This document shows, in pieces, positions 48,222 through 53,866 of a stretch of DNA of 64,000 bases. Each line of letters starts with the position of its first letter. Position 1 is the first letter of the stretch. Origin of the DNA: Gammaproteobacteria bacterium (lineage in GTDB: Bacteria; Pseudomonadota; Gammaproteobacteria; Steroidobacterales; Rariloculaceae); the NCBI GenBank assembly GCA_022820625.1, contig JAJEFE010000147.1:1-64000 (forward strand), written 5' to 3'. The notes under the pieces were generated by a model, which made no database searches, was not told the origin of the DNA, and saw only the letters and a program-made list of their open reading frames with translations. The position numbers and the translations under genes are program-made.

Positions 48222-50312
48222 TCAGGGCGTCATCGGCACATCGCAGTTCCCCGGGGGGTGGCCGGGGATTTCCTCCACCGGCATTGTGACAGCGAATACC
48301 ACGCCGCTCCCATCGGGCAGATCCTCGCCCCGAACCGTGCCGCGATGGAAGTCCGCGACCAGCGATACGATGTGCAGGCCCAGCCCCAAATGATGCCGCC
48401 CGTCGCGTTCCCGGCGAATCGAAACCAGCGAGTCGAACAACTGCGAGCGCATGGAGGACGGAAGGCGCGGACCGCGGTTGACGACGTTGATCGTGAGTTC
48501 CCGGTGCGTACCGCCGAGCGTCACCTGGATGGGCGCATCCTCCCGGCTGAAGCTCACCGCGTTGTCGATCAGCTTGTCCATCATCTGGACAATGAGTTCC
48601 CCCGATCCCAGCACGCCGGTATGGAGCGCCTCGCAACGGTATTCGATGGTGTGGCGGGGATAGACGTCACGGTAAGCGGCCGTGCAGCTCGCCAGAACGG
48701 CGTCCAGGTCGAAAATCTCCGGTTCGGTGGCGGAAACGGACTGTTCGATCAGCGTGGCTTCCGTCATGGCGCCGAGGATGCCGTCCAGCCGGGAAACACC
48801 TTCCTTCAACCTGGAAAGATAGGGCGACAGATTGGCGCCGTGGGGCTCACGCTCCAGGTTTTCAAGCGATGTGGATGCCACGGCCAGCGGCGTACGCAGC
48901 TCGTGGGCCAGTTTGGACTTGAGCGTTGTCAGGTAGGCGGTATAGTCCCGGAGCCGATTCAGCAGATCGCTGAAACTGCGGGCCAGGTCGCCGATTTCAT
49001 CTTTCGCGCGGCGTCCCGGCAGCGACGCGCGGATTTCTCCCTTGGGGCCCAACGCGGTTTCGGCGGCGCGGGAAAGCCGCCGCACGCGGAACGACAGCAC
49101 GGTGGCGTAGCTCAGGAGCCCCGCCGCAACGACGAGCATCGCCAGAAAGGTCACGCTCAGCAGGCGCACCAGGGCGGCGTTGGTCAGCGTAAGAATCGAG
49201 TCGCTTCCCTGCTCCAGGATCACCGCGCCCAGTTGCTCGTCGCCGCGAATGATGGGTGCACCGACCGCCACCACCGCGCTTTCGTCTCCGCCTCTGGCGA
49301 ACCACGCCGTCACCGAGGCGCCTTCCAGGACGGATCGGAGCGGCCCGCGGCCCAATCGGCCGGGCGGTTGTTCGAACCCGGTGAAGTCAGGGTCGTCCCG
49401 CCTGAGCATGAACCGGTAGATCTGCTCCATCAGGCTCGGATTGAAGTCGTCGAAGGTGGCCGAGAGGGGGTCGATCTCACCCTCGTCGAAGAGCACCCAA
49501 CCGGCGGGCCCGACAACGACCAGACGCCTTCCCGACTGGATGAACTGTGTTGCAGACATGGCAAGACGCGCGGGCCGGTACAAGAGCATGCCGGGATCGT
49601 CTCCGGGCCAGGAACTCTCCACGGCCACCTGGAAAGTTTCGGCTGCCGGGTCGGAACCTCCCGGGTCCACGTCAACCACTGCAATTCCGAGCCGTTCGCC
49701 GGCCCTCGCAAGTGGCAGCCTGATCTCTACCGCGAATCCGTCCCCAGATTCTCGCCAGAACGCCGGCACCCTGGCATCGCGGCGTCCCGTCGGCGTGAAC
49801 AGGGGCGCCGAGGTTTCCTGAGCGCGAAGGCTGCCGGGCGTGGTCGTGTGGAACAGGAGCCAGTCCGGTTGCTCCGATTCCGTCAGGAGCAATACCCGGT
49901 CACCATAGGGTGTTTCCCCCGGTGCGCGTTGGTACACGACATTCGGGTCCGGGTAGTGCAGAAACAGGAACAGGCTGCGCTGGTACACGCCGATCCAGAA
50001 TCGCCCGGACCCGCCCAGGGGAACGCCGGTGGTTTCCGCGCTGCTCCAGTCGTCACGATAGCCGTCGATCAGGGGCTCGGAGGTCAGCGGGTGGGCATAC
50101 ATGACCCCGCCCGGCTGCGCGGCCGACCGGGATGCATTGGTTTGCAGATCCTGCCCGGGAAGCGCTGCCGCCGTGGACTCGGCGGTCGCCAGCAGCGATT
50201 GTGCAAGCCCCGACCGCAGCGCGCCTTCGAGCTCCTGCACGTAGCGGTACCCGGCCCAGGGCAGGACCAGCGTGAGCAAGCCCAGGCCCAGGAGCTGGAG
50301 ACGCAGCGACAC
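48222..50312 (-). CDS. Sensor histidine kinase, proteobacterial dedicated sortase (PdsS) type
   Basis: This membrane kinase has 696 residues. An N-terminal helix (LLGLGLLTLVLPWAGYRYV) precedes a long periplasmic domain with a carbohydrate-binding-like segment (PLIDGYRDDWSSAET, FWIGVYQRSLFLFLHYPDP, VPAFWRESGDGFAVEIRLPLA). A second helix, HAMP, HisKA with His470 in KLAHELRTPLAVASTSLENL, and an ATPase domain (KLIDNAVSFS, GLGLHIVSLVADFHRG) follow. Length, the periplasmic domain and the paired regulator match the kinase of the dedicated sortase systems. Two bases separate it from the regulator gene. No sortase is visible nearby. Confidence 0.82.
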   Translation of the reverse strand: MSLRLQLLGLGLLTLVLPWAGYRYVQELEGALRSGLAQSLLATAESTAAALPGQDLQTNASRSAAQPGGVMYAHPLTSEPLIDGYRDDWSSAETTGVPLGGSGRFWIGVYQRSLFLFLHYPDPNVVYQRAPGETPYGDRVLLLTESEQPDWLLFHTTTPGSLRAQETSAPLFTPTGRRDARVPAFWRESGDGFAVEIRLPLARAGERLGIAVVDVDPGGSDPAAETFQVAVESSWPGDDPGMLLYRPARLAMSATQFIQSGRRLVVVGPAGWVLFDEGEIDPLSATFDDFNPSLMEQIYRFMLRRDDPDFTGFEQPPGRLGRGPLRSVLEGASVTAWFARGGDESAVVAVGAPIIRGDEQLGAVILEQGSDSILTLTNAALVRLLSVTFLAMLVVAAGLLSYATVLSFRVRRLSRAAETALGPKGEIRASLPGRRAKDEIGDLARSFSDLLNRLRDYTAYLTTLKSKLAHELRTPLAVASTSLENLEREPHGANLSPYLSRLKEGVSRLDGILGAMTEATLIEQSVSATEPEIFDLDAVLASCTAAYRDVYPRHTIEYRCEALHTGVLGSGELIVQMMDKLIDNAVSFSREDAPIQVTLGGTHRELTINVVNRGPRLPSSMRSQLFDSLVSIRRERDGRHHLGLGLHIVSLVADFHRGTVRGEDLPDGSGVVFAVTMPVEEIPGHPPGNCDVPMTP

Positions 50313-50314
50313 GT

Positions 50315-51031
50315 TCAGTCTCCCGGGTCTGGCTGGGGGCTGATCCAGCGATAACCCATGCCATAGACGGTGTCGATGGCCCTGAACTGCGGATCGGCGG
50401 CGGAAAACTTCGCGCGAATGCGCTTGATCTGAGAGGTCACGCTGCCGTCGTCAAGCACCACATTGGCAGCGGCCATGAGCTGTTCGCGCGTGCGCACATG
50501 ACCGGGATGCCTCGCCAGGGCATGCACTACCCAGAATTCGGTGAGGGTAAGGGGGACCGTAACGTAGTGCCAGGAAACGCTGACCCGATCCAGATCCATC
50601 TCCAGGGGTCCACGGCTCAAGAGCTGTGGTTCGGCTGCCGCGTTGGTCAGCGCCTCGACGCGCCTGAGCAGCGCGGCGACCCTGGCGAGCAGGTGCTCCA
50701 GGCTGATGCGTTTGGTCAGGTAGTCGTCGGCGCCGAGCCGCAATCCGGATATGGCGTCCAGTTCGCTCTCCCGGGCAGTCAGAAAAATGATCGGCAACTG
50801 CGTCGAACGGGCTCTCAGTTCGCGGCACAGTTCGAATCCCCCCTCGACCTCGCCGGACAGGTTGATGTCTATGATCACCAGGTCGGGAAGGCGGGCCTCG
50901 AAGGCGTCCAGCGCTTCCCGGCGCGAGCTGAAACCTGCGACCCGATAACCCTGTCGCTTCAGCGCCGCCATGTAGTTGTCGCGGATCGCGATCTCGTCTT
51001 CCACGACAGCGATGAGTTTGCCCGCATCCAT
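50315..51031 (-). CDS. Response regulator, proteobacterial dedicated sortase (PdsR) type
   Basis: The 238-residue OmpR-like regulator has a receiver domain (KLIAVVEDEIAIRDNY, phospho-acceptor Asp55 in LVIIDINLSGEVEGGFELCREL, LPIIFLTARESELDAISGLRLGADDYLTKRISL) and a winged helix (LTEFWVVHALARHPGHVRTREQLM, IDTVYGMGYRW). The VEGGFELCREL segment after the phosphorylation site and the EFWVVHALARHPGHV helix closely resemble the regulators of dedicated sortase systems. A GGAGA ribosome binding site precedes the ATG. It is transcribed with the kinase immediately downstream. Confidence 0.85.
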   Translation of the reverse strand: MDAGKLIAVVEDEIAIRDNYMAALKRQGYRVAGFSSRREALDAFEARLPDLVIIDINLSGEVEGGFELCRELRARSTQLPIIFLTARESELDAISGLRLGADDYLTKRISLEHLLARVAALLRRVEALTNAAAEPQLLSRGPLEMDLDRVSVSWHYVTVPLTLTEFWVVHALARHPGHVRTREQLMAAANVVLDDGSVTSQIKRIRAKFSAADPQFRAIDTVYGMGYRWISPQPDPGD

Positions 51032-51259
51032 TGAACCGTCTCCAATCGTAGCTTCATGCGCGCACCTCTGGACAGGGTAGTCCCACGCGTGTCCACTGAC
51101 GGAAACTGTACCGCATGGGGTCACGTCACTCGAAAAGGGATCACGCCCGCACCAATCCGGGCGTCATTTCACCATCCACGAATCATGAAGCGCCGCACTG
51201 TTCACCCGGCAACGGGTAACGGTCGGTAAGGAAGTGCTGCACCCCTTGCGGTGCGCGCG

Positions 51260-52111
51260 TCAGGCCGCGACGGATCCCCTGAGCTTGCGGATGGCGTTCG
51301 CCTCGATCTGGCGGATGCGCTCGGCGGAGACTTTGTATTCGGCAGCCAGTTGGTGAAGGGTAGCCTTCTTCTCCACCAGCCAGCGGCGCTGGACGATATC
51401 GCGGCTGCGGTCGTCCAGTGCGGCCAAAGCGTGTCCCAGTCGCCTGCGCGAATCGGCTTCCCAGTCGGCCTCCTCGACCACATCGGCCGGGTCGCTGTCC
51501 GGACTCGGCAGATAGGCGACCGGTGCGTACTCGTCTTCCTCCGTGGGGGAGCCGTCGTAGGAGACATCGCGGCCGGAGAGGCGCCGTTCCATCCGGGTGA
51601 CTTCGGTCGGACTGACGCCGAGGTCTTCGGCAACCGCTTGGGTCTCCTCGCTGGACAGCCAGCCGAGGCTGCTCTTGGCCTTGCGCAGGTTGAAGAACAG
51701 CTTTCGCTGGGCCTTGGTGGTGGCCACCTTGACCAGACGCCAGTTCTTCAGGACGTATTCGTGAATTTCGGCGCGGATCCAGTGCACGGCGAAGGAGACC
51801 AGCCGCACGCCCACCTTGGGATCGAAGCGCTTGACCGCCTTCATGAGGCCGACGTTGCCTTCCTGGACCAGGTCGCCGAGCGGCAGTCCGTAACCGGTAT
51901 AGCCACGGGCGATGTGCACGACGAATCTCAGATGGGAGAGGATCAGGCGCTGGGCCGCTTCCAGGTCATCGTTTTCGCGAAGCCGCGTGGCGAGATCGAA
52001 CTCCTCCTCCTTGCTGAGCACGGGAACCGCGCGGACGGCCTGGATGTAATGATCCAGGCTGCCGATGGGCGCCCCGAGCACCAACTGATTGTGGGCGATC
52101 GCCGTGGTCAC
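51260..52111 (-). CDS. rpoH: RNA polymerase sigma-32 (heat shock sigma factor)
   Basis: This sigma factor of 283 residues directs transcription of heat-shock genes. It shows region 2 ([68 protein letters not shown]), the sigma-32-specific RpoH box [12 protein letters not shown], and region 4 ([23 protein letters not shown]). Translation starts at GTG with GGGAGACG upstream. It follows ftsX on the same strand, the usual gammaproteobacterial order. A perfect CIRCE element lies 77 to 103 bases before the start, overlapping a promoter-like sequence, which suggests control by HrcA. Confidence 0.96.
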
Positions 52112-52187
52112 GATGCTTCGTCTCCCGTCATGATGACTCGCCTGTCAACGCGCAAAACCGCTTGCATGGTTGCGCGGACGCGCGATT

Positions 52188-52214
52188 TTAGCACTCCGAC
52201 GGTTAGAGTGCTAA
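52188..52214. promoter_or_regulatory. CIRCE operator (HrcA binding site) upstream of rpoH
   Basis: TTAGCACTC-N9-GAGTGCTAA is an exact match to the CIRCE consensus bound by the heat-shock repressor HrcA. It lies between ftsX and rpoH. On the rpoH strand, TTAGCA and TAAAAT spaced by 18 bases form a promoter whose boxes overlap the operator arms. A second TTGACA at 52144-52149 has no paired -10. Confidence 0.92.
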
Positions 52215-52269
52215 CACTTTGAATGGTTCCGATCAGGGCGAAATTCAACCCACACCATGCGGTAGTCGA

Positions 52270-53184
52270 TCAGCTGGGTTCGATCTCCCGCAGATGGCGG
52301 GCGACGGCAATGCCGGCGCCGGCCCAGCCGAGGAAACCGCCCACGCCCAGCAACCACGCCATATCCGCCAGGCTGAGTCCTGCCAGGCGATAGTCCGATC
52401 CGTACAATTCCATCAGCGCACGGGCGGGCGAGGCAACCAGGCCGAGTCCGAGGACGATGATCAGCGCCGCAAGGATTCCCGCGCCAACGCCGTAGCACAG
52501 CCCCAGGTACAGGAAGGGACGCCGGATATAGCCGTCGCTGCCACCTACGAGCTTGATGATTTCGATCTCTTCGCGGCGATTGCCGATCTCCAGGCGGATC
52601 GTGTTGCCGATGACCACGATCACGGCCAGACCGAGCAGCACCGTGGTCACGTCCACCACGCGGCGCGCCAATTCAAGAATCGCCCGCAGCCGTTCCAGCC
52701 ACTCCGTATCGAGCTGCACAAGGGCGGTTTCCTCCAGGGCATCCAGATCCTCGACCAGCTGATCCAGATCGGCGCTCGTGCCGGCCGGCCGCACGATGAT
52801 GGCATGGGGCAGGGGGTTCTCGGCCAGCAAATCCAGCGCTTCCCCGAACCCCGAATAGGCGCGAAACTCCACAAGCGCGTCGGAGCGGTCAAGCAGTTCG
52901 GCCCGCTCCACGTCGTTTCGCTGCCTGATCTGCAAGGCGAGATCTTCGGCCGCCGGGTCGTCCACGGCCATTTCAAGGTATACCGTGAAGTCCGCAGCCC
53001 CTTGCCAGGTACCGCTCAGCGCACGCGCATTGTCCACCATCACCCGCAGTCCGGCGGGTACGGCCAGCGCGATGGCAATGACCAGGATGGTCATTAGGCT
53101 GCCCAGCGGACGGTCCGCCACGCGGACGACGGCGCCGGTCATGTTTTCAACGTGCAGTGAAAGGTAGCGGGCGATCGTGTCCAT
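52270..53184 (-). CDS. ftsX: Cell division ABC transporter-like permease FtsX
   Basis: This membrane partner of FtsE couples cytosolic ATP hydrolysis to activation of periplasmic cell-wall hydrolases at the septum. The 304-residue protein has the FtsX layout: a first helix (SLMTILVIAIALAVPAGLRV), a large periplasmic domain at about 50-165, and three C-terminal helices (DVTTVLLGLAVIVVIGNTI, YLGLCYGVGAGILAALIIVLGL, MAWLLGVGGFLGWAGAGIAV). IRLEIGNRREEIEIIKLVGGSDGYIRRPFLY is the conserved coupling segment. It starts 10 bases after ftsE. Confidence 0.95.
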   Translation of the reverse strand: MDTIARYLSLHVENMTGAVVRVADRPLGSLMTILVIAIALAVPAGLRVMVDNARALSGTWQGAADFTVYLEMAVDDPAAEDLALQIRQRNDVERAELLDRSDALVEFRAYSGFGEALDLLAENPLPHAIIVRPAGTSADLDQLVEDLDALEETALVQLDTEWLERLRAILELARRVVDVTTVLLGLAVIVVIGNTIRLEIGNRREEIEIIKLVGGSDGYIRRPFLYLGLCYGVGAGILAALIIVLGLGLVASPARALMELYGSDYRLAGLSLADMAWLLGVGGFLGWAGAGIAVARHLREIEPS

Positions 53185-53194
53185 GCGCAGGCCT

Positions 53195-53866
53195 TCAGCC
53201 GGGTACCGCAGCCGGACCCGCCATGCTTCCGGCCTCCAGGTAGAGCCGCCGGTAGCCCATCCGGCTGATCAGCTCCAGGTCGTGGGTTGCGATGAGCACG
53301 GTGGTTCCCACATCGTTGAAGCGCCCGAACAGGCGCATGATCTCCAGCGAGAGCCCCGGATCGAGGTTGCCCGTGGGCTCATCGGCGATGACCAGTTGCG
53401 GACGGCTGGCCACCGCCCTGGCAATGCCTACGCGCTGCTGTTCTCCAGAGGAGAGGGACAGGGGGAACTGGTTCTCGTAGCGCAGCAGACCCACCTGATC
53501 CAGGGCGGCGCGCACCCGTCCCCGCAGCTCCCGGCGCCGTAACGACGAGATCATCAGGGGCAGCGCGACATTGTCGAATACGGTCCGGTCGTGCAGCAGT
53601 TTGTGATCCTGGAAGACGATGCCGATCTGCCGTCGAAACTGTGGAATCCGGCGCCGCGGGACGCGGGCCGTGTTCTGACTGGCCACCAGTACGGTACCGC
53701 GCGTGGGTCGTTCGATGAGTGCAACCAGCTTGAGAAGCGTGCTCTTGCCGGCGCCCGAGGGACCGGTGAGAAAGGCCATTTCGCCCCTTTCGAGGCGGAA
53801 GCTGACCCCGCGAAGCGCTTCCCTTCCCGCGGGATAGCGCTTTCGCACGTTCTCGAAACGGATCAT
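53195..53866 (-). CDS. ftsE: Cell division ATP-binding protein FtsE
   Basis: The 223-residue ABC ATPase works with FtsX. Walker A is FLTGPSGAGKSTLLKL, the Q-loop is IGIVFQDHKLLHDRTVFDNV, the signature is LSLSSGEQQRVGIARAVASRP, and Walker B is LVIADEPTGNLDPGLS, followed by the His switch LIATHDLEL. The opening MIRFENVRKRYPAGREALRGV is a canonical FtsE start. ftsY, normally next to ftsE in Gammaproteobacteria, is not here: the upstream neighbour is the divergent rsmD, 59 bases away. Confidence 0.96.
   Translation of the reverse strand: MIRFENVRKRYPAGREALRGVSFRLERGEMAFLTGPSGAGKSTLLKLVALIERPTRGTVLVASQNTARVPRRRIPQFRRQIGIVFQDHKLLHDRTVFDNVALPLMISSLRRRELRGRVRAALDQVGLLRYENQFPLSLSSGEQQRVGIARAVASRPQLVIADEPTGNLDPGLSLEIMRLFGRFNDVGTTVLIATHDLELISRMGYRRLYLEAGSMAGPAAVPG

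Follow-up and report, generated by a model that had tools for sequence, protein, structure and literature searches.

Control of the heat-shock response by the repressor HrcA, which acts through the CIRCE operator, and control by sigma-32 are usually described as parallel, with an overlap at groESL. The locus described here raises the question of whether the gene for sigma-32 can itself be an HrcA target. The window (the whole stretch of 64,000 nucleotides that was analyzed) contains a CIRCE element at positions 52188-52214, a feature without assigned strand, between ftsX and rpoH and 76 bp from the GTG start of rpoH (52111). The full site, TTAGCACTC-CGACGGTTA-GAGTGCTAA, is 27 bp long and has no mismatch to the operator (TTAGCACTC-N9-GAGTGCTAA). 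It is the only CIRCE in the window at up to 3 mismatches (0.01 expected by shuffling), and base composition predicts about 2e-7 exact matches per window and about 2e-5 per genome.

The ORF that follows (51260-52111, minus strand) was identified as rpoH, encoding the heat-shock sigma factor sigma-32, by NCBIfam model TIGR02392 (401.6 bits; cut-off 323.1). The original prediction of a perfect CIRCE directly upstream of rpoH is thereby borne out for both the operator and the gene. The upstream neighbours on the same (minus) strand are ftsX (52270-53184; TIGR00439, 317.1 bits) and ftsE (53195-53866; TIGR02673, 281.7 bits), and the order ftsE-ftsX-rpoH is that of E. coli. Directly downstream of rpoH (48222-51124, minus strand) lie ORFs whose translations, on reading, resemble a histidine kinase and a response regulator.

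The operator overlaps promoter-like elements on the rpoH strand. One of these, TTAGCA-N18-TAAAAT, had been pointed out before; it is present, with a score of 9/12 and a TG extension before the -10, but it gave an incomplete picture, as a sigma-E-type promoter is also interlocked with the operator. The sigma-70-type extended -10, TGCTAAAAT (52185-52193, minus strand, detected as a scan match), is made up of the CIRCE right arm and three further bases, and qualifies as such by TGNTANNNT and by conservation of the A and the final T. The weak -35-like TTAGCA (52209-52214, minus strand) lies inside the CIRCE left arm; it is inseparable from the operator sequence, so that its conservation is no test of TTAGCA as a -35.

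The sigma-E-type elements consist of a -35 core, GGAAC (52226-52230, minus strand), located 11 bp upstream of CIRCE, and a -10, TCTAA (52203-52207, minus strand), of which TC ends the CIRCE left arm and TAA begins the spacer. On the rpoH strand the whole composite has the layout GGAAC-N11-TTAGCACTCTAA-N6-GAGTGCTAA-(A/T)AT. Its GGAAC-N18-TCTAA matches a sigma-E promoter in the distance between -35 and -10, which equals that of E. coli rpoH P3, although GGAAC is followed in this species by CA and not by the preferred TT. E. coli P3 also resembles the composite in having GAAC-N18-TC (GAAC-N18-TCTGA in E. coli) and then TAAAA, but it has no CIRCE palindrome. E. coli was not among the genomes matched when control genomes were searched for the hrcA family.

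According to a search of the assembly (4.56 Mb in 169 contigs), the genome has one hrcA gene (G000:C19:62871-63872; 316.7 bits, over the TIGR00331 cut-off), the presence of which had been proposed as a check on HrcA control. Only two CIRCEs occur in the genome at up to 3 mismatches, one at rpoH and the other at groESL, 67 bp before groES and after a sigma-32-type promoter (CTTGAAA ... CCCCTAT). A CIRCE at hrcA itself was ruled out, as none lies at the hrcA-grpE-dnaK-dnaJ locus within 3 mismatches; the DNA upstream of hrcA showed, by eye, only a TTGACA-like element. The genome also encodes one RpoE-type sigma factor over the family cut-off (TIGR02939, 304.6 bits), and the ORFs that follow rpoE read like the anti-sigma factors RseA and RseB on inspection of their translations. 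Upstream of rpoE, CGAAC-N18-TCTAT, with its -10 overlapping the apparent ATG, is a candidate site for rpoE autoregulation.

Conservation was followed in 57 rpoH loci from 54 genomes of the order, which were chosen by RpoH protein similarity and not by the composite pattern. CIRCE was present (up to 2 mismatches) at 52 of the 57 loci, corresponding to 51 of the 54 genomes. The five loci without it belong to three genomes of one family (G032, G045 and G056) and to second rpoH copies in G008 and G019. Its occurrence in close relatives had been named as a second check; in the three exceptional genomes hrcA likewise gave no match, and the whole genome is devoid of CIRCE. Within the order, GAAC was found at the identical offset in 38 of 52 rpoH CIRCEs as against 0 of 16 groES CIRCEs, and the spacer begins with TAA in 33/52 and 1/16, respectively. 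Six small genomes (G002, G003, G012, G033, G046 and G057) keep CIRCE and the -10 and are missing GGAAC. At the groES loci (L002, L044-L072), CIRCE is usually preceded by a sigma-32-type promoter, with little variation in the distance between the two, indicating that groESL is probably under joint control of sigma-32 and HrcA.

The composite extends beyond the order. A scan of GTDB genomes detected at least 117 loci with an exact composite; among the matches listed, the next gene was rpoH in all 113 with enough downstream DNA, and in the other four the DNA ends within 135 bp downstream. The composite (up to 2 mismatches) was found in 108 of 369 genomes of the class, with none for a reversed-pattern control, and all four composite-matching genomes in a sample of the phylum belong to this class. 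An hrcA gene was found in 270 of the 369 genomes, and the composite occurred in 104 of these 270 as against 4 of the 99 hrcA-less genomes (Fisher p about 1e-12, with the reservation that the genomes are related, so that counts cannot be treated as independent trials, and that many of them were assembled from metagenomes). The four hrcA-less carriers are assemblies of 62-85% completeness, and hrcA may therefore simply be missing from them.

A further 75 genomes without the strict composite, taken from the best RpoH matches and hence not random, gave a similar association: CIRCE (up to 3 mismatches) preceded rpoH in 45 of 54 hrcA-positive genomes vs 3 of 21 without hrcA, and 8 of the 54 had no CIRCE at rpoH. 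CIRCE is conserved at rpoH orthologues and disappears where hrcA has been lost. The original prediction had placed CIRCE mainly at groESL, dnaK and hrcA, which needs revision, since its location at rpoH is usual in the hrcA-bearing Gammaproteobacteria examined and was predicted for Geobacter sulfurreducens as early as 2004, according to the passages on that species (PMC545781).

The pattern of variation within the element was examined in a wider set of 131 rpoH CIRCEs, which includes loci chosen by the pattern. With that selection, GAAC was at the expected offset in 89/131, most commonly followed by the dinucleotide TT, and about a quarter had no GAAC near this offset, indicating that the sigma-E part is not universal. 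Position 3 of the left arm departed from consensus in 27 of the 131, compared with only 1 of the 131 for the mirror position, which is the first T of the -10; such an asymmetry would not be expected if a symmetric repressor were the sole constraint. The A at the second position of the -10 was invariant throughout the set, and the last T was kept in 127. This last base of the hexamer is the third base after CIRCE, a position left free in the search pattern, and was T in 116 of 116 exact composites among the matches listed. The bases flanking the element are near background while the palindrome is conserved across many families.

With good confidence, we read the element as a working HrcA operator that overlies the promoter region of rpoH, where HrcA, kept active by GroEL, would repress both sigma-E- and sigma-70-driven transcription of rpoH. 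The presence of hrcA, the retention of CIRCE in nearly all relatives in the order and its recurrence in the class support the original proposal that rpoH is under HrcA. An unlikely alternative is that the operator sits on a sigma-70-type promoter only, GGAAC and TCTAA being incidental or inactive in this species; this would suit the 9/12 score and TG extension of TTAGCA-N18-TAAAAT, the last T of the -10, which is more nearly invariant than GGAAC, and the six small genomes that have CIRCE and the -10 and no GGAAC. It does not, however, account for the strong enrichment at rpoH of GGAAC at a single offset and of the spacer TAA, which are missing or infrequent at groES, nor for the preference for TT after GAAC in the wider set and the spacing shared with E. 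coli P3.

The inverted repeat could also work at the RNA level, as an attenuator or thermosensor hairpin in a read-through transcript from ftsEX, instead of as a DNA operator, since only a short gap separates rpoH from ftsX, which is upstream on the same strand, and such an RNA would include the whole repeat. This was rejected as very improbable: the predicted stability of the leader is no greater than that of shuffles (z -0.09), and the asymmetry of the arms follows the needs of a promoter and not those of pairing. Moreover, the repeat is identical to CIRCE including the N9 spacing, it recurs at groESL, and it is rare where hrcA is absent. That the palindrome is a functionless relic or a chance inverted repeat is scarcely credible, given the expectation of about 2e-5 per genome noted above, its conservation across many families between flanks near background, and the retention of hrcA.

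Under the favoured reading of a working operator on two promoters, we infer from the sequences how HrcA binding, occlusion, sigma-factor use and dynamics at rpoH may be ordered. GroEL is the activator of HrcA. In the unstressed cell, HrcA activated by free GroEL would bind CIRCE at rpoH and block both the sigma-E-type promoter (-35 GGAAC, -10 TCTAA) and the housekeeping extended -10 TGCTAAAAT. When misfolded protein occupies GroEL, HrcA activity would be lost, and rpoH could then be transcribed by the housekeeping sigma factor, and more strongly via sigma-E under additional envelope stress. The resulting sigma-32 would drive groESL, the sigma-32-type promoter of which carries the only other CIRCE of the genome, and the rise in GroEL would restore HrcA. 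On this model rpoH and groESL would share one chaperone-sensing repressor, with sigma-32 linking rpoH to groESL.

Two classic heat-shock systems thus appear to be wired together, unlike in E. coli. Conservation of the operator on rpoH would place HrcA upstream of the whole sigma-32 regulon and tie it to sigma-E, and the composite would offer a chaperone feedback on sigma-32 at the level of transcription. In E. coli, chaperones exert this kind of feedback mainly by acting on the sigma-32 protein. With somewhat more than even confidence, we suggest that HrcA has rpoH as its second core target, after groESL, in most of the Gammaproteobacteria that carry it, many former Betaproteobacteria among them, that the operator co-evolved as one composite with the sigma-E promoter and the extended -10, that GroEL availability gates the envelope-stress input, and that rpoH control of the E. 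coli type is the state after HrcA loss.

Permina and Gelfand, in 2003, reportedly described HrcA and sigma-32 regulons of beta, gamma and epsilon species. Compared with the known HrcA/CIRCE systems at groESL and hrcA-grpE-dnaKJ, the operator and its N9 spacing are identical, and this genome likewise has hrcA and a CIRCE at groESL. The differences are that the target here is the gene of the heat-shock sigma factor, that the operator is intertwined with -10 elements of the sigma-E and sigma-70 types and does not come after a sigma-32 promoter, and that the hrcA-grpE-dnaK locus is without CIRCE. In G. sulfurreducens the relevant passages give, as here, a perfect CIRCE a short distance before rpoH (at -51 in the table) and groESL as a further target; unlike here, the organism belongs to a different class and also has CIRCE before hrcA-grpE-dnaKJ (PMC545781). 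Those passages describe no overlapping sigma-E promoter. A sigma-E-type factor acting on an rpoH promoter region is known from Bordetella bronchiseptica, where, according to the main text of the report, SigE transcribes in vitro its own rpoH (fam) promoter region and E. coli rpoHP3; HrcA does not appear in that main text (PMC3490749). The main text on PromoterAtlas, a 2026 promoter model for Gammaproteobacteria, likewise mentions neither HrcA, CIRCE nor rpoH. CIRCE at rpoH has been predicted previously, and earlier reports of it from beta or gamma species are possible, but no account of the composite with sigma-E and an extended -10 was recognised in the parts of the literature searched.

Lineages without hrcA provide natural comparisons. 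One genome listed as 100% complete (G024; L031/L043) carries two perfect CIRCEs, one of them at rpoH and the other elsewhere, and has no hrcA family match, for which an assembly gap, divergence or true loss may be responsible. In the three genomes of the order that lack both hrcA and CIRCE (G045, G056 and G032; L086, L087 and L089, respectively), the DNA upstream of rpoH contains, by eye, a sigma-32-like CTTGAAA-N13-CCCC, which would point to autoregulation of rpoH in this family once HrcA was lost. The same CTTGAAA-N13-CCCC, again with no CIRCE, lies upstream of the divergent second rpoH copies in G019 (L097) and G008 (L098), of about 50% identity, and these paralogues therefore look sigma-32-controlled. 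Some hrcA-less genomes have a broken palindrome, with TCTNA and TGCTAAAAT remaining. Decayed relics of CIRCE at rpoH could be read by eye in three such genomes, all from one family (G133, G259 and G361; L338, L328 and L336); in these relics, among them TTGGCACTC-TCATTTGT-TAGTGCTAAAAT, the spacing or an arm of CIRCE is lost while the sigma-E motif and the extended -10 are kept.
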